From a virus, in the IMG/VR virus record IMGVR_UViG_3300027791_000073, positions 1-33,816 of that record: a DNA stretch of 33,816 bases; one strand, 5' to 3'. Positions 5,074 through 33,816 of the stretch are shown here, piece after piece. Under the pieces are notes generated by a model that worked only from the letters and a program-made list of their open reading frames with translations, did not search any database and had not been told where the DNA came from. Made by a program: the position numbers and the translations under genes. The number at the start of each line of letters is the position of its first letter. Within the stretch, counting starts at the first letter, position 1.

Positions 5074-7479
5074 ATGAAACTGGCAAATCTTACTCTTGTA
5101 CTATTAGCTGTGTGGGCAGGCCCCGCTGCAGCTCAATATGTGTATGAGACTGACCAAGCCTTAATAGATTTACAAAATAATTATATAGCTACATCTTACA
5201 ATTTTAATGTTGGAGATGATCAAGTATCCTCGATGCACAGCCTAGGGTTTACTTTTGACTTTTATGGTGAAGCTTTTACAGAAGCTAGAATGGCAACTAA
5301 TGGTTGTCTACATTTCAAAAGTAGTGGTGCATACTGTAACGACTACACTCCCGATCCCTTAACAGGGCAACACACCTTTACTATGTATCCTTTTTGGACA
5401 GACCTCATACGAGACAATGGCTCAAAAATGTTAGCTAGAAATTTTAGCGATAAAACAGTATTTGGTTGGTATGGCATGAGAGAATACAATCGTGCTTCGG
5501 ATAATAGCTTTGAAGTCATACTATGGCAAGATGATAACTTTGAATTTAGGTATGGCGCTTTAGATGTTATTAACCATGATATACTTATCGGAGAAACTGG
5601 TGGAAGTAAAGCAGAAGCATATACTTACTACTATCACGATGAGTGTAATACAGGTACAACAAATGCTTCTAACTGTGTAAATACAAACTGGAACAATATC
5701 AGTATGAATAATACACTAGAAAGCGGTGGTTCTTTATACGGAGCAGGTAGTGGTAACTCTATTGACTGTAGCGACCCTTTAGCTAACTCATCTTGTGCAG
5801 GATATGCATCAGCTTATCTAAGTGCACAATGTGACGTTGACCAACTCTACTCAGAGTCATGCCCGTACTACTGGCCTGCGTACGATGACCAACAATGTGA
5901 CCAAGATCCTCAGTATGCTCCTTTTTGTCAAGGGTATGCTTCACAAGATTCTGTAGCCTACTATGATGATGATATGGACGAATATGGATATGACGATCAT
6001 AATGGGTATAGTGAAGAAGATATGTGGTACGATGAAGAATTCGATGAATACCTTGACCCAAGTGACCCTTGCTATGAAGGACGTTGTGATAACTTTACTG
6101 ATGCAGACTGGTATGCACTAGATGTAGAAGAATTTGGACAAGATCAAGCAGATGCACTATACGGTGGTACAGTTGCTTTCAATGACGACGGAATGGTGGA
6201 CTTTGAACGAAGTGATATGGATCAATATGAAGACCTTGACATGCAGTTTGATATTATGGATCAAGAGGTAGAAGAATTTCATACCTATGTAGATACTTAT
6301 CAACAACAACATGACGAACCTTTCGATATCTTAGGGGGGTATGGCACAGAAGCACTACTTGAAGACTTCGAATTCCAAGTTTTAGTACTAGAAGATAGAT
6401 TACGTATGGAAGAAGAACGATACGAAGAATTTGAACAATTTGAAGATTTTGAAAATTTCGAAGAAGATTTCGAAGAGCAGTTCGAAGAGTACCTAGAAGA
6501 AGAAAGGTATACTGAAGAAGATTTTGAAGAGGAATTTTACCCAGAGGAAGAGATCTTTGAAGAAGAATTCGTTGAAGAAATTTTTGAAGATATACAAGAG
6601 ATGCGGGAAGAAATGATCGAAGAAGAGCTAATGGCAGAAAGAGAAGAAATTTTCGAAGCTGAAGAATTAGCAGCGGAAGAGGCTCCACAAATTATCGCAT
6701 TCTCAGAGCCTGCAAAACAAACAGACAGATCGTCCAGAAGGGCGGCCGCAAGAAGAATCGTTCAAGGAACTATTGCAGCGGCAACAAGAAGTACAGATTA
6801 TAGTGGAAGCAGTGCAGGAGCATCTGCAACCCAAACAGGAAGTTCAAGAGCATCAGGTGGCGGTGGCTCGACAGGTGGAGGAGGAATTAGTAGTTCTAGT
6901 TCTCCTAGTATGTCAGACCAGTTTGCAAGTTCTTCACAACAAACACAACAAGTTTTATCAATGAGCCCAAGTAGTGCTGTAGCAAGTAATACTGGAGGAG
7001 GATCATCTTTCTCAAGCTCATCAAGTTCATCTAGCTCAACAACATCTGTATCTATCACTCCTATGCCAGGAATGGGTGGTACAGCTACTGGAGCTATGGT
7101 GGACGTACAAGTTTCTAACTTATCTGGAGAGATTGATACTGCAATGTCTGGAGCTATGACAGCTTCCGAAGCAGATACTATTGCAGATCAAATTGTAGCA
7201 GCTAACATTGACGAGCAGCAAGATCAAGGAGAAAGCACTCAAGACGAGACAGGAAAATATGGTGACGAGAGTACTCTTGTAGCCTACTTAGGATATGTGC
7301 CAGGATTCAATGCCTACACAAATGCACAACTTCCTAAACAAACAAGCTGGTATGAGCCAAGATCACTTGACGGTGGTGTTATAGGCGACAATGTACTAGC
7401 ATTTTATGAACTAGCAGGAACTAATATGAGAAATATGACTGCTATGGTTAATTCACAACCAAATTTATTAGGAGAATAA
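5074..7479 (+). CDS. Secreted nidogen-like protein with very acidic and Ser/Gly-rich regions
   Basis: 801 aa, starting directly after the previous stop (TAAATG), so probably coupled. Signal peptide residues 1-20. Residues about 38-190 resemble a NIDO-type beta domain (LGFTFDFYG, TNGCLHF, PFWTDL, FEVILWQD). Residues 191-290 are Cys-rich with a repeated CxxDxxY pattern. Residues 290-440 are Asp/Tyr-rich, and 440-540 are almost pure Glu/Phe (FEE repeats). A Ser/Gly/Gln linker runs to about 680, then a C-terminal domain containing GYVPGF. It is likely exported and may bind cations or form an extended surface fibre. No enzymatic motif was seen. Together with the previous gene it forms a pair of large exported proteins that are not obvious virion parts. 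Confidence 0.65.
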   Translation: MKLANLTLVLLAVWAGPAAAQYVYETDQALIDLQNNYIATSYNFNVGDDQVSSMHSLGFTFDFYGEAFTEARMATNGCLHFKSSGAYCNDYTPDPLTGQHTFTMYPFWTDLIRDNGSKMLARNFSDKTVFGWYGMREYNRASDNSFEVILWQDDNFEFRYGALDVINHDILIGETGGSKAEAYTYYYHDECNTGTTNASNCVNTNWNNISMNNTLESGGSLYGAGSGNSIDCSDPLANSSCAGYASAYLSAQCDVDQLYSESCPYYWPAYDDQQCDQDPQYAPFCQGYASQDSVAYYDDDMDEYGYDDHNGYSEEDMWYDEEFDEYLDPSDPCYEGRCDNFTDADWYALDVEEFGQDQADALYGGTVAFNDDGMVDFERSDMDQYEDLDMQFDIMDQEVEEFHTYVDTYQQQHDEPFDILGGYGTEALLEDFEFQVLVLEDRLRMEEERYEEFEQFEDFENFEEDFEEQFEEYLEEERYTEEDFEEEFYPEEEIFEEEFVEEIFEDIQEMREEMIEEELMAEREEIFEAEELAAEEAPQIIAFSEPAKQTDRSSRRAAARRIVQGTIAAATRSTDYSGSSAGASATQTGSSRASGGGGSTGGGGISSSSSPSMSDQFASSSQQTQQVLSMSPSSAVASNTGGGSSFSSSSSSSSSTTSVSITPMPGMGGTATGAMVDVQVSNLSGEIDTAMSGAMTASEADTIADQIVAANIDEQQDQGESTQDETGKYGDESTLVAYLGYVPGFNAYTNAQLPKQTSWYEPRSLDGGVIGDNVLAFYELAGTNMRNMTAMVNSQPNLLGE

Positions 7480-15786: not shown

Positions 15787-16066
15787 GAAAGCAGTACTTG
15801 AACACTTAGCAAATTTTTTTGCTGAACAAGGAAAAGTTTTAACACCAAGTGAATATAAGTCTATGGGGAACGATGACGTACCTATGAGATTTATGGTTGC
15901 GAAAAGACCTTTCGGGTCTTGGTCGCGAATGACTCAGATGTTAAAAGTTAACTTTCCAGACCAATGGGCCAAAGCTAATCAACAAGCAGCACCTACTCCA
16001 GCAAAAGCTGAAGTAAAAGCCGCTCCAAAGACAGCAAAGGCAGCTCCCAAAAAAGCTAAGGAATAG
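15776..16066 (+). CDS. 96-aa basic protein between portal and protease
   Basis: I chose the ATG at 15776 (MANKKAVLEHLANFF), which overlaps the portal end and has GAGGAACAGG upstream; an in-frame ATG at 15743 is less likely because it lies deeper in the portal gene with no good site. Residues 1-60 look like a small winged-helix-like or homeodomain-like fold (PSEYKSMGNDDVPMRFM, SWSRMTQML); the last 35 are an Ala/Lys/Pro repeat tail. It may bind DNA or the capsid interior. No family recognised. Confidence 0.6.
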   Translation: MANKKAVLEHLANFFAEQGKVLTPSEYKSMGNDDVPMRFMVAKRPFGSWSRMTQMLKVNFPDQWAKANQQAAPTPAKAEVKAAPKTAKAAPKKAKE

Positions 16067-16075
16067 GTAGGACAT

Positions 16076-18088
16076 ATGGAGAAAATTTTTCATTGGACAA
16101 ATACATTCAAGACTCTAGGTGAGGACGATGACGGTGGTGTTAATATTAAAGGATTAGCATCTACTAATGCAATCGACCGTGCTGGAGATGTAATCAATCA
16201 TGATGCATGGATAAAAATGAACGGATTAGAGAACTATAAAACTAACCCAATCGTTTTATTTAATCATGATTACAACAAACCTATTGGTCGCGCAACTTCA
16301 CTAGAAGTTACAGAAAACGGTCTGGAATTTGGAGCGAAAATCTCTAAATCTTCAGGCGAAATCAAAGATCTTATTAAAGATGGTGTTCTTGGGGCCTTTT
16401 CAGTCGGTTTCAGAGTCAAGGATGCAGATTATAACTCAGAAACTGATGGATACACAATAAAAGATGCCGAACTATTCGAAGTCTCAGTTGTCAGTGTACC
16501 GTGTAACCAGGGAGCAATGTTCTCGGTTTCAAAGTCATTCGACAGCATGGACGAATATAACGAGTGGAAAACGCACTTTAATAATAAAGAGGCTCAGATT
16601 ACTTCTGCGCCACAAGCCGAGGATAAAACCTCACAACAGGAGACTAAAATGTCAAATGACACTAAAATCCCCGAAGCTAACATCGACTTGAAAGCTTTTG
16701 CAGAAGAAGTAGCAAAATCAACTGCTGCTAAAATTGCAATGCAACAAGCCGAAACTAAAGCTAAGGAACTTGCAGATGCAGAAGAAAAAGCAGTACAACT
16801 AGAAGTTGAAACTGCTGAAAAAGAAGCTAAACAAGACGAAGTTAAAACAATAGTCGAAGTCGGAATGTCAGGAGCTCAACAGCTCATGAATGACGTTGAA
16901 AAACGTGTTTCAGAAAAACATGATGACCTAGAAAAAATTGTTAACGAACTTCAAACTGAACTCAAAGATAAAAAAGAAGAGATCGACGCAATTCGTGAAT
17001 CTAAAAGAGTCTTTGGTGACAGACAAAATGGCGACTGGAAAAAAGCATTCGAAGCAGATATTGATGACGCTTACGTAATGGGTTTAGCCACAGGTAAAGG
17101 TTGGGATACTAAACTTGCACACAATACAATGGAAAAAGTAAACGCACACTCAGGTGTTGGTGTTTCATCCGCTGATTTTGAGCAAACAGTTTCAACTAAT
17201 ATCGAAAGAGATATTCAATTAGAACTAGTATTAGCTCCGTTATTTAGAGAAATCCAAATGACTTCAGCTACTCAAATCATTCCAATTCTACCAGATGCTG
17301 GGTACGCTGAATTTACAGCTAACCAAACAGCTACCGGAACTACTCCGCATGGTAACTTGGAAGAAAGAGGCGATACTTATGACTCAACAATGTCAGGTAT
17401 TGACTTAACTGAAAGAACTCTTTCAACCAAAAAACTCATCTCACAATCCTACTTAGGTAATGAGACAGAAGAAGATGCAATCTTGCCAATTCTACCATTG
17501 ATTCGTGAATCAATCGTTAGAGCACATGCAAGAGGTATTGAAAACGCACTACTATTGGGTAACCATGCAGACGGCGTTTACGGTACAAGTGGAGCAGCTT
17601 TTGAAGGACTAGTCACAATGGCTGGGGCTAACAAAACTCAATCCGCAACTGCATTTGCTTCAGAATCCTTGACAGCTCTTGATTTATTAAAAGCTAGAAA
17701 GAACATGGGTAAATATGGAATGAATCCAGCTGATGTAGTATACATCATTAACACAACAGAATACTTCAACTTATTACAAGATGCAGAATTCCAAGATGTT
17801 AATCTAGTTGGTTCAGAAGCAGTTAAACTACGTGGCGAAATTGGTTCAGTCTATGGCTCTAAAGTCATCGTCTGTGACGAATTCAAAACACCAGCCGTAT
17901 CTAAATTCTACGGTTGTGCAGTTTATGCAAAGAATTATCTAATGCCTAGATTAAGAGGTGTAACAATCGAATCTGACTACGAAGTAGCTAATCAGAGACG
18001 AGTACTTGTTGCTTCTCAAAGAATTGGATTCACCGATATGATCGATGCTTCTACTTCAACTTGGGCACTTCAGTACAAAGGTAGTTAA
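16076..18088 (+). CDS. Fused prohead protease and major capsid protein
   Basis: 670 aa. Residues 1-155 are an HK97-type (S78) prohead protease: NIKGLAST start, LFNHDYN with H64, LGAFSVGFR with S109, and ELFEVSVVSVP with an acidic third residue. Residues about 160-325 are charged coiled coil (scaffolding delta-like). Residues about 345-670 are the HK97 capsid fold, with VGVSSADFEQTVSTNI, a long beta-rich centre (E-loop and P-domain), NPADVVYIIN and the late VIVCDEF segment. In most phages protease and capsid are separate genes. An in-frame ATG at 16649 (residue 192) has AGGAGA five bases upstream and could start a separate scaffold-capsid product. Confidence 0.92.
   Translation: MEKIFHWTNTFKTLGEDDDGGVNIKGLASTNAIDRAGDVINHDAWIKMNGLENYKTNPIVLFNHDYNKPIGRATSLEVTENGLEFGAKISKSSGEIKDLIKDGVLGAFSVGFRVKDADYNSETDGYTIKDAELFEVSVVSVPCNQGAMFSVSKSFDSMDEYNEWKTHFNNKEAQITSAPQAEDKTSQQETKMSNDTKIPEANIDLKAFAEEVAKSTAAKIAMQQAETKAKELADAEEKAVQLEVETAEKEAKQDEVKTIVEVGMSGAQQLMNDVEKRVSEKHDDLEKIVNELQTELKDKKEEIDAIRESKRVFGDRQNGDWKKAFEADIDDAYVMGLATGKGWDTKLAHNTMEKVNAHSGVGVSSADFEQTVSTNIERDIQLELVLAPLFREIQMTSATQIIPILPDAGYAEFTANQTATGTTPHGNLEERGDTYDSTMSGIDLTERTLSTKKLISQSYLGNETEEDAILPILPLIRESIVRAHARGIENALLLGNHADGVYGTSGAAFEGLVTMAGANKTQSATAFASESLTALDLLKARKNMGKYGMNPADVVYIINTTEYFNLLQDAEFQDVNLVGSEAVKLRGEIGSVYGSKVIVCDEFKTPAVSKFYGCAVYAKNYLMPRLRGVTIESDYEVANQRRVLVASQRIGFTDMIDASTSTWALQYKGS
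16638..16651 (+). promoter_or_regulatory. Internal ribosome binding site and start in the capsid gene
   Basis: AGGAGA (16638-16643), five-base spacer and ATG (16649-16651), in frame with the fused gene, encoding MSNDTKIPEA onward. The signal is as strong as any in the window, and it falls exactly at the boundary between protease and the coiled-coil scaffold region, where an independent capsid precursor would begin. Confidence 0.65.
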
Positions 18089-18104
18089 TACCTAATGCGA
18101 ATAT

Positions 18105-18136
18105 TTGGAGGGGGTTTAACTCCCTCCAATGTTTTT
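18105..18136 (+). terminator. Rho-independent terminator after the capsid gene
   Basis: TTGGAGGG (18105-18112) pairs with CCCTCCAA (18122-18129) around a nine-base loop, followed by TGTTTTT. It lies 17 bases after the capsid stop. It would limit transcription into the connector and tail genes, giving capsid protein in excess, or act as a partial terminator. Confidence 0.9.
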
Positions 18137-18147
18137 AAGAAAAAATT

Positions 18148-18759
18148 ATGGCAGATTTAGTAACATTACAACAATACAAAGACTTCGCTGGATTACAGGG
18201 AGTTCAAAATGACGCAAGAATCAATACTATTATTGATCAAGTAAGTCAATTAGTAAAAAGTTATTGTAGTACTACTATTATAGATTATGCCGCAACCAAT
18301 AAAACTGAATTCTTTACAGTTAAAGATGATTTAGTCGATACTATTATTTTGGAAGAATCTCCAATTATAGCTGTAGTATCAGTAGAAGAACGAACAGGAC
18401 AAGCAGATCCATATGTCACCCTCATTACGGAAAATTCCAATAATAGTGGTAAATATGAATATGTAGTCAATGACGACTCTGACAGTATTACTCGTACGAG
18501 TGGTTCTGGAAATAAGAGCTGGCCTAAAGGCCCAAAGAGTGTCAAAGTAGTGTACAAAGCAGGTTATGTTTCTACACCAGACGATTTAAAACTAGCAGTA
18601 TTTGATTTGATCAAGTACTACTTAAAAGACGAACGAAAAGAAAGAATGTCGATTGCAGGAGCAACTGTTGAAAATGCAGTATCTTCTAGCTTAACCGGTA
18701 ATATAGGTTTTCCAGATCATATCAAGCGAATACTTGATATGTATAAAATCTATAGCTAG
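18148..18759 (+). CDS. Head-tail connector (gp6-like adaptor)
   Basis: 203 aa. The N-terminus (DLVTLQQYKDFAGLQG ... INTIIDQVSQLVKSYC) is the helical start of phage head-tail connectors, followed by a beta insertion and a return to helices (PDDLKLAVFDLIKYYLKDERKERMSI), ending FPDHIKRILDMYKIYS. This matches the gp6/HK97 adaptor pattern, where twelve or more copies sit under the portal. It directly follows the capsid gene, as expected. The stop TAG overlaps the next GTG start. Confidence 0.85.
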   Translation: MADLVTLQQYKDFAGLQGVQNDARINTIIDQVSQLVKSYCSTTIIDYAATNKTEFFTVKDDLVDTIILEESPIIAVVSVEERTGQADPYVTLITENSNNSGKYEYVVNDDSDSITRTSGSGNKSWPKGPKSVKVVYKAGYVSTPDDLKLAVFDLIKYYLKDERKERMSIAGATVENAVSSSLTGNIGFPDHIKRILDMYKIYS

Positions 18760-20270
18760 TGGCAATAAAATTAATTGAAGAACGGTTTAATAAACTTTTA
18801 GAAGATTACAACACATCAATAAAAGGTGGCTTTGTTAAAGGTTTACCCGACAATACATTTGTAGATATAGAAATTGGTGGATCAGAAGGAATAGCCGCTT
18901 TTATAGTAGTAACAAATAAACTGTTAAAAGATGAGAAAGAATTAAATAAATTAAATAATACTGTAACATGGACAAAAGCTCTCAAAAGTGTAGCAAGAAA
19001 TGTTCATTCAACTAATATGATGGGTACTATACCTTTACCTAAATGGGACAAAAGCAAAATGAATACTCCCGGACTATATAAGTTACTAGGTGCAGGAACA
19101 TCATCAGATCGTATAATAATTCGATCTTATAGAAAAAGAGGGAGAGACAAAGACGATAGAGACATTCGAGCCTTAGCGGCGCAGTTTAGAAATGCACTTT
19201 GGGATACTTGGATAAGTCAGAATTATGGCGCTAAAACAGTTGGTGGCTTTGGGGCAAAGGCAATGGGAGGAAACCCAAACATAGCGGGTTCTAAAGCTGC
19301 AGGAAGTAGATCTAGATCAAAAAAGGGTAAGATTGATACTAGAGCTTTAGGTTTACAGTTTGCTATAAATACTCCAATCGCACATAGAGAGCAAAGTACA
19401 ACAGCAGTATACGCATTAAGAGACTTAGAAAATAATGCACCAGCATTAGACCTAAATTTTGGAATAGAAACAAAAGATATAATAGACTTTGTAAAAGAAA
19501 GCTTAAGTATAAACTATAACGAAGACAGACGAAAACAGGCACAGGGCGACTATAGTATAAAAACTTATGTAGAGGCTAGGTTTGAACAAAGTAATACAGA
19601 ACTTACAGATATTGACGGAATAAAAACAGCCGCACTAGCAGGAATAGAAAAGTTTATAAGTGTAAATAGTAACAGGCTTGTTGACATAGATCAACCAGGC
19701 AGTAAAACAACAAGACAACAAATAACAGGCGATGTCATAAAAGACATACTAGATAACGCAAAAATAACTTATCAAGGAAAACAAGTAAAAGCAAAGATTA
19801 CACGAAAAAACAAAACTAAGTTTGATGCAAAACCAAAAAGAGCACAAACTAAACGAAAAGCAAAAGCAGGTAAAAAAGCAAGTAGACTTGCAATGGCAGT
19901 TTCAGGAGCCAGTTCTTTAAGAGGAAAAAGACCTCAGAAAGACAAAAGAGAAAAAGTAGGTACTTTACAAAGAATTGAAACACTAATTAACAAAAGATTA
20001 CCTGCAGAAGTTAGAAGAAATATGGGAAGACCCGCATTAATAAATCAGACTGGCAGGTTCTCAAATAGTACAAAAGTAAATCTTAGAGAAACATCAGCAG
20101 GAATTTCAGGTGAATATACATACTTGAGATCTCCTTATGAAACTTTTGAAAATACAGGATCAAGGAAATGGCCAACAGGATATAACCCTAAACCTCTTAT
20201 TACAAAAAGTATAAGAAATTTAGCACTGCAGTATACTGCACAAAAGTTAGTTAGCCTTAGGAGAGTATAA
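18759..20270 (+). CDS. 503-aa putative neck or tail-joining protein
   Basis: Starts with GTG at a TAGTG junction. The N-terminal 150 residues are mixed alpha/beta; the centre contains a Gly/Ser/Lys linker (about 170-190) and a strongly basic stretch (about 355-385, with repeated KRKAK-type runs). The C-terminal 90 residues (RRNMGRPALINQTGRFSNSTKV ... YETFENTGSRKWPTGYNPKPLI) resemble head-tail joining proteins of the HK97 gp10 kind, which would fit its place between the adaptor and the tail terminator. It is about three times the length of a gp10-like protein, so extra domains are present. Confidence in the function is moderate. Confidence 0.5.
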   Translation: MAIKLIEERFNKLLEDYNTSIKGGFVKGLPDNTFVDIEIGGSEGIAAFIVVTNKLLKDEKELNKLNNTVTWTKALKSVARNVHSTNMMGTIPLPKWDKSKMNTPGLYKLLGAGTSSDRIIIRSYRKRGRDKDDRDIRALAAQFRNALWDTWISQNYGAKTVGGFGAKAMGGNPNIAGSKAAGSRSRSKKGKIDTRALGLQFAINTPIAHREQSTTAVYALRDLENNAPALDLNFGIETKDIIDFVKESLSINYNEDRRKQAQGDYSIKTYVEARFEQSNTELTDIDGIKTAALAGIEKFISVNSNRLVDIDQPGSKTTRQQITGDVIKDILDNAKITYQGKQVKAKITRKNKTKFDAKPKRAQTKRKAKAGKKASRLAMAVSGASSLRGKRPQKDKREKVGTLQRIETLINKRLPAEVRRNMGRPALINQTGRFSNSTKVNLRETSAGISGEYTYLRSPYETFENTGSRKWPTGYNPKPLITKSIRNLALQYTAQKLVSLRRV

Positions 20271-28504: not shown

Positions 28505-29241
28505 TGGCAACATATACTAGTTTTCTAGATATACTACCTGATCCTAGTAATCCAATAGGTATTGGTGGACAAGCACTTGCAACAAGTAGTGGTGGTACAA
28601 ATGGTCCTGGCTTTGCTTCGGTTCAGTTTTCTTCAGAAGCTCCTATACAAGTATCAAGAACAAATAGTGGAAGAGTGATTACTCGATCTATTGCTGGACA
28701 TAAATGGAGTATACAAATAAAATATAATCCAATGACTCGAGATCAATTCGAACCAGTTTACAACTTCTTACTAGAAAAGAATGGAAGATTAAATCCTTTC
28801 TTTGTAAAACTACCTCAACAATCAACTTCAAGAAATGCTGCTTTTGTTTCCGCAAATCCAACAATTACTACAGCTACTACTGGAGCAGCTGGCTCAGGCT
28901 TTATACTACAAGCAGGGCATAATACAACAGAAGCAACTCAACCACAACCAGGAGATATGTTTACAATTACAGATACAAACGATAGTTTACATACTAAAGC
29001 ATATAGAGTTACACGAGTTATGGGCAATGGTACTTACAATTCAGCTCTACATTCACAACCGACAACAGCGCAACGAATTGTATACTTTACACCTCATCTA
29101 CAAAGAGCAGTAGCACAAGGAGCAACCTGTGACTACACTCCTCTTGTTAGAGTTATGTTAAAAACAGATGTACAATCTTATAGCTTAGGCACTAATAACC
29201 TTTTTAGTTTTTCCCTCAACTTAGAGGAGGCTCAGGCATAA
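28504..29241 (+). CDS. Minor tail protein, distal-tail-like
   Basis: 245 aa at a TAATG junction with GGAGGAGGG just before it. Beta-rich; the segment SRTNSGRVITRSIAGHKWSIQIKYNPMTRDQFEPVYNFLLEKNGRLNPFFVKLP reads like the first domain of distal tail proteins that attach the tip to the tube, with an inserted beta domain in the second half and an ending typical for minor tail proteins (FSFSLNLEEAQA). It lies between tape measure and tail-tip genes, where the lambda gpM/gpL or distal-tail gene is found. Confidence 0.6.
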   Translation: MATYTSFLDILPDPSNPIGIGGQALATSSGGTNGPGFASVQFSSEAPIQVSRTNSGRVITRSIAGHKWSIQIKYNPMTRDQFEPVYNFLLEKNGRLNPFFVKLPQQSTSRNAAFVSANPTITTATTGAAGSGFILQAGHNTTEATQPQPGDMFTITDTNDSLHTKAYRVTRVMGNGTYNSALHSQPTTAQRIVYFTPHLQRAVAQGATCDYTPLVRVMLKTDVQSYSLGTNNLFSFSLNLEEAQA

Positions 29242-32200
29242 TGGCAGAAAGACCAATAGGAGCAAATACAAGAAAAAAGCTCATAAACAACGAACCCTTT
29301 GCATACGCACATCTAGTAAAATTCGAACGACCTAGTTCAACTCTTAAAAACGGTAATTACAGTACTGACGCAAAACGGTATGCATATTTTACTGACGCTA
29401 CACATAATCTTTCCTTTGATGATCAAAGTACTAATACGGCAGGCAGTAGTAATGGTCAACAAATGTATATTGCTGGAAAACTTCTTCAAGTAGGAACTTA
29501 TTCAGAAACTGTACAAGCTCGTGCCTCTGGTATGACATTAACTTTAGCTGCTGAAAGTCTAAATAATACAATAACTTCTACAGGAATCAGCATGACTTCC
29601 ACTACTATAACAGTACCCACAGGTATTGATTTAGTAAAAGAAGGTTTCAGAGAAGGCGATAAAGTATTTATTTCAGGTGGAAATAACTCTGGAAGATACG
29701 TAAATGTAACAGGAATAAAAACAAATAATACAGTTCTATTAATTTCTAATATAGACACTACTCAAGTTACTCAAAATGCGGGAGCATCAATAACTCTTTC
29801 TATAGTCTCCGATGAGCTACAAGGTCCACTAGGTGAAACAAATCTTTCAATCGTGAAATCTTATGCAAACAGAGATGTCTGGGTATACAAAGCATTCTTA
29901 GACCCAGAAACAGGAACTATACTTGATAGTACCCCTGTTCTTATATTCAAAGGAATAATAACGAAAGCATCTATAGAAGAAAAGCCTGGTGCAAACGTAC
30001 AAGCAAAATGGAGCCTCACAAGTCATTGGGGAGATTTTTCTGCAGTTAAAGGACGCCCTACCAATGATGCGATTCATAGAGCTTTAGACAGCCAAAATAG
30101 AGGACAGCCCCTAGTATCTTTACGACCAGAATATGCACATGATTTAGGATTTCTTCATGCGGAAGAAACTCTTAATATACTAGCAACTTATACTACAATA
30201 CAGCAAGAAACAAAGTATAAGATGAAGAAGAAGTGGTATGGTAAAGTTAAGATGCAAGAAGTTGTTACTGATGTAGAGGTTGAAAATGATGTTGATCTAA
30301 GTTTTTCACTATCATCCAAATACTTACCAGTAATTTATGGAGTTCAAAGAGCTTCAGGAATACCTTTCTTTGTAGACACAAAAGCAAGTGATCCCAATAA
30401 TGTTTTTCTAGCTTATGCAATATGTGAGGGAGAAATTGGTGGACTTTATGATTTATATATTGAAGGAAATCCTCTTATATGTACTAACAAACCTGACTTT
30501 GATGATCGTAATACTTCTTCAGGAACTCAGCGAGAAAATATTGAAGTTCATTGCAGAGGACGATCAGACCTAGGAAATACACTTGGTGGTGTCAAACTTT
30601 CTGGAAATGGAGTAACAGGCTCAAATGCAGCAGATTATAAATTTGGCAACTCCTATAGAGGTTACGATAGACATGGTTATGAACCGACAGAAGATTTTAT
30701 AGAAGCACAAATTGCTCGTTATCATGGAGTCAATGCTGCTTTAAAAAGCACAACTTTAAATACTGGTGATGGTACAGGTGTAAAACATGGAGAAACAGTT
30801 TCTTTAACTGCTCCAAATAATATGGATATTACATTTCATGCAGGAAAAATAGATCAGAAAGCAGATGACTTATTAGTAGGAATCGCAAATGCCTCTGGTA
30901 ATAATAGATTTAAAAGACAAGCTGACTACTACACAGGAGACGAAGATTACTGGGGTCCAAACCATAGAGTATTAGATACTGCATATACAGTAATGAATGT
31001 AGAAATTGGAGAAGATGCTACAACAGTTCCTGAAATAGAATATGTAGTTAGAGGTAAACTATGCTCAAGTTATAATTATGACTATAGTTATGCTCATGTA
31101 GGGAATAGTGAGACAGTAACTAACTTCAAAATTGGAGACAAAGTAGTACTACATAGAACTGACACTGATGCAGTAATTAATAGCAGTGTACAAATTATTG
31201 ATAAGTGGTCTTTTACAGACCCAGATGGAAATATACAATATAGATTCAGATTTAGTATAGCACCAGCTTTAGGATATTCCGATGGTTATGCAACTATAAA
31301 AGGTTTCTATATGAAAAATAGTTCAAATCAAACTTGGACCATGGGTACTTGGGATTACTCAGATACTTCTCATAGTGCAGGAACTGTTCCTAGTGCGAAT
31401 ACTGAAACAGTGACCGTAAATGATAATGGCACTAGTCCAGTAACAATAACAATTCCTTCTAACTTGAGCTTTATTAATGACTTAATTCTTGATCTTGAAC
31501 ATACTGCTTATGCACAAATTAAATTTGTAAGTAGTATCTTTCCTTATGGATTTGATCCTTTTTGGTTTCTAAAAACTAACTCAACAACTCTTACTCATGC
31601 AGGTACTGGTGGTAGTTCTCATGGTATACAAGCTGGTAGCCAAACTATAGTATCAGCCAACACAATAAAACTAGCAAGTGGAGCTAGTTCTTCTGACGAC
31701 ACATATAATAATTTTGATATTGAATTAACACGAACATCCACAGCAGAAGATGGGAGTTCACAAACACAAAGCTGGACACGAACAATAGTAGACTATGATG
31801 GTGGAACAAAGATAGCAACTCTTAATACTGCGTGGGAAGCAACATTTGAACCAGCAGCAAATGATACCTACAAACTACTTTCAAAAATAAAAAATGGAAG
31901 AACTGATGATAAACGAGTTAGTATAAATCCAACCATACAGTTATTAGATTATTTAACTGGAAGGTATGGAAAAGCTCTGAAGCTAGATACTGATATATCA
32001 TTAGCCGACTTTCTACTCGCTGCCAGAACATGCGATGATAGAGGTACTCAAACTTTACAGGGAACAGATATTGGATCTTCAAACGTAGGCAAAAGATATG
32101 TCTTAACGTCTGACGGAACAGCTTCTGGCTCTGTAGTAGCCATGGGATTAGTAAAATCTCGAGGTACCTCTAACAGTGTTGGATACACAGAATTTCAACA

Positions 32201-33816
32201 AGTTTTTGGAAAGTTCACTAAGAAATTCATGGCTAATGATTATGCCTACTTAGTAGGAGATATAATTCATACTGATGCAGGGTACTATAGAGTTACTACT
32301 GCAGGGGCAAAAGCAACAGCACCAAGTGGAACTAATCCATCAGGATTTACCGGACCTCATGCAAATGTACCTTTATTTTATATCAATGACAATGGTGCAA
32401 TTAGTGGTAGTGCTATAAACTTTACAAGAGTGCGTGACGGAATCTATGGAAACCCTTGTGCAATATACAATGCTACAACTGGTGGATACGATACAGGATA
32501 TAGTTTATATGATTCTGACCATGTTAAATATTGGAGATACTATGGGTGGGACGATAAGCATCAAAGATTTGCTACTCGTCATCAGACACAAGGTACAGTA
32601 AGTACTGCTGACCCCGTATTTGCAAATGTAAATGGATTTTTGGCAAACTTTAATGGTATGTTAAGTTTTGAAGGTGGTAAGTATGCATTACGAATTGAAA
32701 CAGCTTCAGATACTATTGCCTCAACTGTAATAACAGCAGCAAATGCAAGTAGTTATAGTGGTTATACTAAAGGATCTCAATACAACCCACGCGTATTTAC
32801 TGATGATGATATTATTGGCTCTTTAAAACTAGAGGATAAAGGTACTCAAAAATCTTATAATACAGTAAGCGCATCTATAATGGATCCTGCAAACTTATTT
32901 AAGGGTCGTGCTGTAAGCTTCTATGATTCAAACTATCTGAGAGCAGATAAGAATGTTGTGAAATCGGGAAATATAAATATTGCTTCCGTTTCAAATTATT
33001 ATAATGCAAGGATAAATGTAGAAAATTACTTGAGAAAATCTAGATTTGGTCTAAGTATAAGCTTTAAGACTGGGCCTAAATCATTAATGCTTCTGGCTGG
33101 TGATACCATTAGCATAACGAATCAAAAATTTGGGTTTACAGAAAAGTATTTCCGTATTGAAAATATAAATTATGCTAAAGACTGCACCGCAACAATTACA
33201 GCTAGTGAGTATGATGATTCTTTTTACAGTATCTCTGCTCCAACACTTCCAAGTGTAGTTAGTCAGGATCAAAGACAGGGGTTACAAGCTACTCCTGCCG
33301 CACCGAGTAGTTTCTCAGCTTCAATTGCAGAGAATGTTTTAGGTGGTATAAACTTAGCATGGACAAATGGAGCAGCACTTACAACAGCTAATTGCTTTAC
33401 TGAAATCTGGTACCACACAGGTGCTTTAGATATAGCCAATGTAACTTCAAGTGGAAAACTACTAACAAGAGTTCCTTTTCCAGGAGCTACTTTTGTAGAT
33501 CAAATTGGTAAAAAAGATGTAGCAAGATACTATTGGATAAGATCAGGTAAAGTAGTGACTCTAACATCTGGTGGACAGAATAAAGTAAAAGAATTATACT
33601 CAGGACTTGTAGGACCAGCTAATGCAACAACTATAGCACCTATATCTGCTTTCGGAGTAACACTTTCAGGAGAACAATTCTTTACTAGTACCAGTGGTAC
33701 TCTTTCTCCAAGTTCTATAGTATTAACAACAACACGAACAAATTCAACAGGAGACGTAGCCTACGCAGCTGTAAATAACAGTAATGGTAATGTTACTCTA
33801 ACAAGTGCTGGTAATA
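29241..33816 (+). CDS. Large tail-tip/host-recognition protein, cut by the right edge
   Basis: An uninterrupted frame from ATG 29241 (AGGAGG ahead, TAATG junction) to the end of the window, at least 1525 codons; the stop is outside. The first 300 residues (MAERPIGANTRKKLINNEPF, later DVWVYKAFLDPETG and FKGIITKASIEEKPG) resemble the first domain of phage tail-tip proteins. The middle (about 370-430, LSSKYLPVIYGVQRASGIP and FLAYAICEGEIGGLYDLYIEG) matches the gpJ-like hub pattern. A fibronectin-type-III-like domain begins near residue 1351 (AAPSSFSASIAENVLGGINLAWTNG). It should form the trimeric hub and carry the receptor-binding end, whose C-terminal part is missing here. Confidence 0.8.
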   Translation, partial: MAERPIGANTRKKLINNEPFAYAHLVKFERPSSTLKNGNYSTDAKRYAYFTDATHNLSFDDQSTNTAGSSNGQQMYIAGKLLQVGTYSETVQARASGMTLTLAAESLNNTITSTGISMTSTTITVPTGIDLVKEGFREGDKVFISGGNNSGRYVNVTGIKTNNTVLLISNIDTTQVTQNAGASITLSIVSDELQGPLGETNLSIVKSYANRDVWVYKAFLDPETGTILDSTPVLIFKGIITKASIEEKPGANVQAKWSLTSHWGDFSAVKGRPTNDAIHRALDSQNRGQPLVSLRPEYAHDLGFLHAEETLNILATYTTIQQETKYKMKKKWYGKVKMQEVVTDVEVENDVDLSFSLSSKYLPVIYGVQRASGIPFFVDTKASDPNNVFLAYAICEGEIGGLYDLYIEGNPLICTNKPDFDDRNTSSGTQRENIEVHCRGRSDLGNTLGGVKLSGNGVTGSNAADYKFGNSYRGYDRHGYEPTEDFIEAQIARYHGVNAALKSTTLNTGDGTGVKHGETVSLTAPNNMDITFHAGKIDQKADDLLVGIANASGNNRFKRQADYYTGDEDYWGPNHRVLDTAYTVMNVEIGEDATTVPEIEYVVRGKLCSSYNYDYSYAHVGNSETVTNFKIGDKVVLHRTDTDAVINSSVQIIDKWSFTDPDGNIQYRFRFSIAPALGYSDGYATIKGFYMKNSSNQTWTMGTWDYSDTSHSAGTVPSANTETVTVNDNGTSPVTITIPSNLSFINDLILDLEHTAYAQIKFVSSIFPYGFDPFWFLKTNSTTLTHAGTGGSSHGIQAGSQTIVSANTIKLASGASSSDDTYNNFDIELTRTSTAEDGSSQTQSWTRTIVDYDGGTKIATLNTAWEATFEPAANDTYKLLSKIKNGRTDDKRVSINPTIQLLDYLTGRYGKALKLDTDISLADFLLAARTCDDRGTQTLQGTDIGSSNVGKRYVLTSDGTASGSVVAMGLVKSRGTSNSVGYTEFQQVFGKFTKKFMANDYAYLVGDIIHTDAGYYRVTTAGAKATAPSGTNPSGFTGPHANVPLFYINDNGAISGSAINFTRVRDGIYGNPCAIYNATTGGYDTGYSLYDSDHVKYWRYYGWDDKHQRFATRHQTQGTVSTADPVFANVNGFLANFNGMLSFEGGKYALRIETASDTIASTVITAANASSYSGYTKGSQYNPRVFTDDDIIGSLKLEDKGTQKSYNTVSASIMDPANLFKGRAVSFYDSNYLRADKNVVKSGNINIASVSNYYNARINVENYLRKSRFGLSISFKTGPKSLMLLAGDTISITNQKFGFTEKYFRIENINYAKDCTATITASEYDDSFYSISAPTLPSVVSQDQRQGLQATPAAPSSFSASIAENVLGGINLAWTNGAALTTANCFTEIWYHTGALDIANVTSSGKLLTRVPFPGATFVDQIGKKDVARYYWIRSGKVVTLTSGGQNKVKELYSGLVGPANATTIAPISAFGVTLSGEQFFTSTSGTLSPSSIVLTTTRTNSTGDVAYAAVNNSNGNVTLTSAGN

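Follow-up and report, generated by a model that had tools for sequence, protein, structure and literature searches.

In T5, the protease pb11 removes the N-terminal scaffold of the capsid protein pb8 (PMC5292684, PMC10713586). Protease and capsid were separate genes in 13 T5-like isolates, with junctions spanning −1 to 17 nt. Other phages carry these functions in a single gene, as in the tripartite capsid gene of Gifsy-2, which encodes protease, scaffold and capsid. MD8 gp5 likewise joins a ClpP-type protease, scaffold and capsid (PMC8508860), and Paracoccus prophages have protease and capsid fused, again with a ClpP-type protease (PMC6536676); a text search found no mention of internal initiation in either paper. 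In lambda (C/Nu3) and Mu (I/Z), an annotated in-frame start inside the protease gene yields a protease-free assembly partner, and in-frame nested starts also occur in the protease genes of Mu-like relatives (PMC4378225). Nested starts in protease genes and protease–scaffold–capsid genes are already known. In the open-access literature we found no report of nested capsid initiation in protease–capsid fusions, of its generality or of the RNA hairpin described below.

The window, meaning the whole stretch of DNA analysed (33,816 nt), is a 33.8-kb virus record and represents a fragment. Its gene order is that of the T5-like (Demerecviridae) head module: TerL, a nicking/HNH-type gene, portal, a small gene in the decoration position, protease, capsid, adaptor, a gene in the completion position, tail terminator and tail tube, with two of the ten (15743 and 18759) assigned by position only. 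The gene in the tail-completion position (18759-20270) starts with GTG, encodes 503 aa, is about twice the T5-like size and had no PHROG match. Elsewhere in the window, an 801-aa gene (5074-7479) had no match to any PHROG or Pfam family, and a 1525-aa open frame (29241-33815) follows the distal tail gene and runs off the contig end. The window departs from the T5-like arrangement in that protease and capsid form a single frame of 670 codons, the features of which are as follows.

16076..18088, + strand: fused protease–scaffold–capsid ORF, 670 aa, ~73.6 kDa, frame open throughout
16181..16549, + strand: Peptidase_S78 (HK97/T5-type prohead protease) domain, residues 36-158
16619..16632, + strand: linker segment forming a small RNA hairpin, GAGG-AUAAAA-CCUC, with covariation, 6 nt upstream of GGAG
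16638..16643, + strand: internal Shine-Dalgarno (SD) sequence AGGAGA, followed by a CTAAA spacer
16649..16651, + strand: internal ATG (Met192, in frame, codon 192), start codon of a predicted scaffold–capsid precursor of 479 aa, ~52.5 kDa
16649..17134, + strand: scaffold (delta-like) region, residues 192 to ~353, predicted helical
16668..16671, + strand: UCCC at the site where most relatives have CUCC, complementarity to the SD being altered in the window
17135..18085, + strand: putative mature HK97-fold capsid, ~residues 354-670, 317 aa, ~34.4 kDa, from the inferred cleavage place onward
18105..18137, + strand: terminator-like hairpin of 11 bp with a U-rich tail (TGTTTTT) just 3' of the gene

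Both enzymatic and structural parts of the fusion were recognized by Pfam, bearing out the earlier note's reading of one frame with three functions. PF04586 (Peptidase_S78) matched with an E-value of 1.8e-16 and 61.2 bits against a curated cut-off of 21, so the domain, which is homologous to the separate T5-like protease, is predicted to be an HK97-type prohead protease. PF05065 (Phage_capsid) matched residues 392-652 (9e-9; 35.5 bits, cut-off 24.2), and a capsid profile matched solved capsid chains at 7e-62 to 3e-71, including the 299-aa major capsid chain 5tjt at query positions 359-660. The AlphaFold model of the fusion was poor (pLDDT 40), and in this low-confidence model residues 205-314 formed a long helix. 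The region from residue 192 aligns with the N-terminus of the T5-like capsid precursor, and comparison with T5-like capsids (PMC10713586) suggests that the scaffold is removed near residue 354.

Met192 aligns with the T5-like capsid start (MSDTNID... versus MSNDTKIPEANID...), such that the window gene corresponds to the T5-like gene pair minus a stop codon. The head module, protease, scaffold region, capsid and capsid start are shared with T5-like phages, but in the 13 isolates the protease stop codon adjoins or shortly precedes the capsid start, and overall identity is only ~32-40%. Salmonella phage HMD-P2 has protease and capsid in the same frame with a stop codon between them, and carries CGGAGA at the place of the window's AGGAGA; CGGAGA often precedes T5-like capsid starts. 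Separately, four T5-like sequences (L082, L084, L147 and L148) and other T5-like isolates contain hairpin-like palindromes (CUAGC...GCUAG, AGCC-UUA-GGCU) within 60 nt of the 3' end of the protease gene, a short distance upstream of the capsid SD. These are inseparable from coding conservation; they may represent an ancestral hairpin or follow from the conserved motif LEKLAxALG that they encode.

The layout also resembles that of lambda C/Nu3, as the earlier note had proposed, in having a conserved in-frame SD start after the protease domain. The likeness ends at the product: in lambda and Mu the internal start yields a scaffold protein distinct from the capsid, which has a gene of its own, whereas here the frame continues through PF05065 and the predicted product is the scaffold–capsid precursor itself. 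The proteases differ as well, lambda C being an S49 peptidase and the window protease S78.

AGGAGA-N5-ATG lies at 16638-16651, in frame, as described earlier. By duplex energy alone it ranked third among the 174 in-frame internal ATGs of the window, and as evidence for a start the sequence alone is therefore modest; what raises the site above chance is its conservation among relatives, the check that the earlier note had set. Two scans of IMG/VR yielded 138 relatives with 63-100% amino acid identity to the window. All were fused, which rules out assembly error as the origin of the fusion (present in >130 contigs), and their frames were open except in contig L021, where a lone in-frame stop at fusion codon 430 falls in the capsid part; this contig is otherwise intact, and the stop reflects a sequencing error or a defective genome. 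Across the window and its IMG/VR relatives, 138/138 sequences that reach this position have ATG as the Met192 codon. GGAG occurred in all 73 distinct contexts, 6 nt upstream of the ATG in 72 and 9 nt upstream in the other, in a linker that varied in both sequence and length. A genome collection added one relative at 72% identity and seven at 40-46% in marine MAGs (two from one MAG, and L161 with masked bases in the capsid); these too were fused and had SD and ATG at the same place. More broadly, relatives occurred in at least 568 IMG/VR stretches, and the closest annotated isolates among the matches listed were T5-like (~35%). They form a large marine clade with no cultured member in the collection, and some contigs were binned in Gammaproteobacteria MAGs.

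Synonymous sites around the internal start were also constrained. In a scan of 89 sequences, the seven-codon intervals with the lowest synonymous change in the gene fell at codons 173-189 (ratio of 0.09 for codons 183-189), and nowhere in the gene was synonymous constraint stronger than in the 20 codons ending at the internal ATG. This reveals selection on the nucleotides and not on the protein alone.

A small RNA hairpin, which the earlier note had not seen, lies just 5' of the SD. Its 3' end lay 5-9 nt before GGAG in every distinct context, and its stem showed compensatory changes between lineages, with variants in relatives including ACGG-AUAAAA-CCGU, GUGGG-UUCG-CCCAC, GAGGA-GAAA-UCCUC and GGGC-AUUA-GCCC, and in distant relatives AGCGGA-AAAA-UCCGCU, GAACUGA-AAAG-UCAGUUC and UCCGA-GAAA-UCGGA. 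The loops were rich in GNRA and UUCG. Using a gapless alignment anchored on the SD, which resolved the hairpin, the covariation score of 41 distinct sequences was 0.310 compared to 0.085 when shuffled (0/500), slid registers scored low, and 0/9453 placements elsewhere in the ORF matched the linker hairpin in both pairing and covariation. The hairpin score was passed by 47/47 distinct contexts and 6/6 distant relatives, a level that ~15% of shuffles reach; because the sequences are related, these shuffle counts are not probabilities. RNAalifold did not detect the hairpin when run on a codon alignment guided by the protein, owing to misalignment of the linker there. The strongest consensus RNA fold of the ORF (~−4.9 kcal/mol) was at 16382-16417, within the conserved protease coding region.

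The role that we infer for the hairpin is to tune internal initiation or to protect it. That it merely keeps the SD open found little support: disallowing the pairs of the hairpin moved SD accessibility from 0.25 to 0.22. In single-sequence folding the SD was mostly paired (mean unpaired probability 0.25). In lambda, the nu3 start (~833 in L163) is also directly preceded by a perfect 5-bp hairpin (CCGGA-UGACG-UCCGG) before its GGAG.

A further element lies 3' of the SD, where 75/81 distinct relatives carried CUCC, the complement of the SD core GGAG, compared with a background frequency of 4.7% of windows. It was placed at exactly +29 nt in 67 relatives, and the Thr, Ser or Ala codon at the motif always ended in T (the preceding codon being NCT). 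CUCC is a possible SD-sequestering or coupling element. Consensus folding of the relatives gave no support for one common SD:CUCC helix, and we treat SD sequestration and translational coupling as no more than leads. Given an SD that is predicted to be paired and a CUCC in many relatives, internal initiation may not simply be strong, but held back or coupled.

The SDs themselves do not reveal the product ratio. The earlier note had suggested a little fusion and much capsid, which is unsupported as stated: of 85 distinct cases, 35 had a stronger SD at the internal start than at the start of the gene, 24 had SDs of equal strength and 26 had a weaker internal SD, with no consistent bias, and in the window the duplex energies were −7.4 (internal) and −7.6 kcal/mol (start of the gene). 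SD strength consequently failed as proof of a protease-to-capsid ratio. The note had also proposed that a terminator after the gene adds to the capsid excess. The hairpin itself held up, since 91/91 distinct regions 3' of the gene have one of 7 bp or more; the U-tract was weak in many of them, making full termination uncertain. Provided that it terminates transcription or stabilizes the mRNA, this 3' hairpin would favor capsid over the downstream genes.

Unrelated fusions provided independent cases. We collected single-frame fusions of S78 protease and capsid from Pseudomonadota genomes, ten of which were checked by Pfam, defined the 80 codons from the end of the protease domain as the boundary zone and searched it for an in-frame ATG with an SD of at least 4 nt. 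Such a site was found in 21/23 genomic fusions compared to 11/99 equal windows elsewhere in the same ORFs (p=1e-13). Clustering at 60% identity reduced the 23 fusions to 18 lineages in three protein superfamilies, with a site in 16/18 lineages compared to 7/78 control windows (p=5e-11). Among isolate phages, including Persinger, Bas97, VP882, RcRhea, RcOceanus and Mano, which are likewise fused but belong to other capsid lineages than the window, the SD-ATG followed the protease in 9/10 compared to 2/46 control windows (p=7e-8); the exception, cyanophage S-CBS1, has a Met in place and no recognizable SD. In Bas97 the candidate internal start is Met217. Pooling lineages and isolates, control windows contained an SD-ATG in 9/124.

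Shifting the ATG within zones gave an expectation of 4.1 ORFs, with 24/26 observed, and SD and ATG occurred jointly in 25 cases compared to 4.2 expected from their separate densities. Synonymous shuffling was a far weaker control than the ATG shift, with an SD before the Met expected in 10.7/18 lineages and observed in 16; its high expectation arises because residues before the Met (for example, Glu and Gly) encode SD-like bases. The isolate records that we examined annotate one forward-strand protein per fusion, mostly named major capsid protein or major head protein. Those unrelated genomic fusions that were folded shared no evident hairpin upstream of the site.

Gifsy-2, MD8 and the Paracoccus prophages differ from the window in having ClpP-like proteases and other capsid families. 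In the Gifsy-2 gene (L164:2472-4562), the ClpP domain is closely followed by GAGGAG and an in-frame ATG, making Met221 an unannotated candidate capsid start in a classical tripartite gene.

These observations are best accommodated by a gene with two starts, which we consider highly probable: protease would reach the prohead as part of the fusion, and capsid precursor would be made from the internal start. Initiation at 16076 would produce the 73.6-kDa protease–scaffold–capsid fusion. The 52.5-kDa scaffold–capsid precursor, a homolog of the one in T5-like phages, would come from initiation at the internal SD-ATG (16649). This precursor, presumably the major product, would build the prohead. Copies of the fusion would use their capsid segment to co-assemble into the same shell, which would deliver the protease to the interior in a fixed manner. 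The protease would then cleave off the scaffold and itself, leaving a mature capsid of ~34 kDa.

Only the full fusion might be made, with about one protease per capsid and the linker cut after assembly, and the SD-ATG would then be a relic of a once-separate capsid gene. The separate genes and homologous capsid start of T5-like relatives fit this account, as does the annotation of isolate protease–capsid fusions as one protein. A relic would decay, however, and ATG and GGAG are kept across 63-100% identity and persist at 40-46% amid a varying linker, synonymous sites are frozen exactly at the SD-ATG and unrelated fusions share the feature, so we regard this account as quite unlikely. An internal promoter yielding a capsid-only transcript would likewise raise capsid over protease. 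Such a transcript is made from an internal promoter in herpesvirus UL26.5, and the UL26/UL26.5 layout is comparable. At this locus, promoter-like matches in 16000-18300 showed no excess over shuffles (5 versus 5.7), with none just upstream of the ATG, and linker conservation was concentrated in about the last 50 nt before the ATG; we rejected an internal promoter as highly improbable.

The hairpin invites two other readings. It could be a recoding signal, with a frameshift causing a share of the ribosomes to terminate after the protease, and in the close group a −1 frame TAA does lie inside the hairpin. Neither L046-L048 nor the distant groups have this TAA, and there is no shared slippery heptamer; with neither slip site nor alternative-frame stop common to the relatives, and with the GGAG 6 nt before the ATG explained by initiation and not by frameshifting, we rejected recoding as barely credible. 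Alternatively, hairpin and conserved bases could serve mainly in mRNA processing or stability, with a cut near the linker leaving the capsid part, flanked by stem-loops, as a stable translated mRNA. The presence of conserved hairpins on either side of the capsid part, one upstream of the internal SD and one past the stop codon, is consistent with this idea, which we find rather unlikely as the main role; it needs the SD-ATG too, and therefore complements internal initiation without replacing it.

Extended beyond this locus, internal initiation of the capsid precursor could be a general and largely unannotated rule of phage protease–capsid fusions across several capsid lineages, with the marine clade having a dedicated RNA module (hairpin, SD, start and mostly CUCC) that sets or couples the ratio. 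We put this forward tentatively, at slightly less than an even chance.

The basic question to which the locus speaks is how tailed phages load the right few protease molecules per prohead. If two starts are used, phages would package protease by making a fraction of the coat subunits as protease-bearing chains, and a pair of initiation sites on a single mRNA would determine the ratio. Capsid N-termini would then be misannotated in phages with such fusions, including the cultured E. coli phage Bas97.
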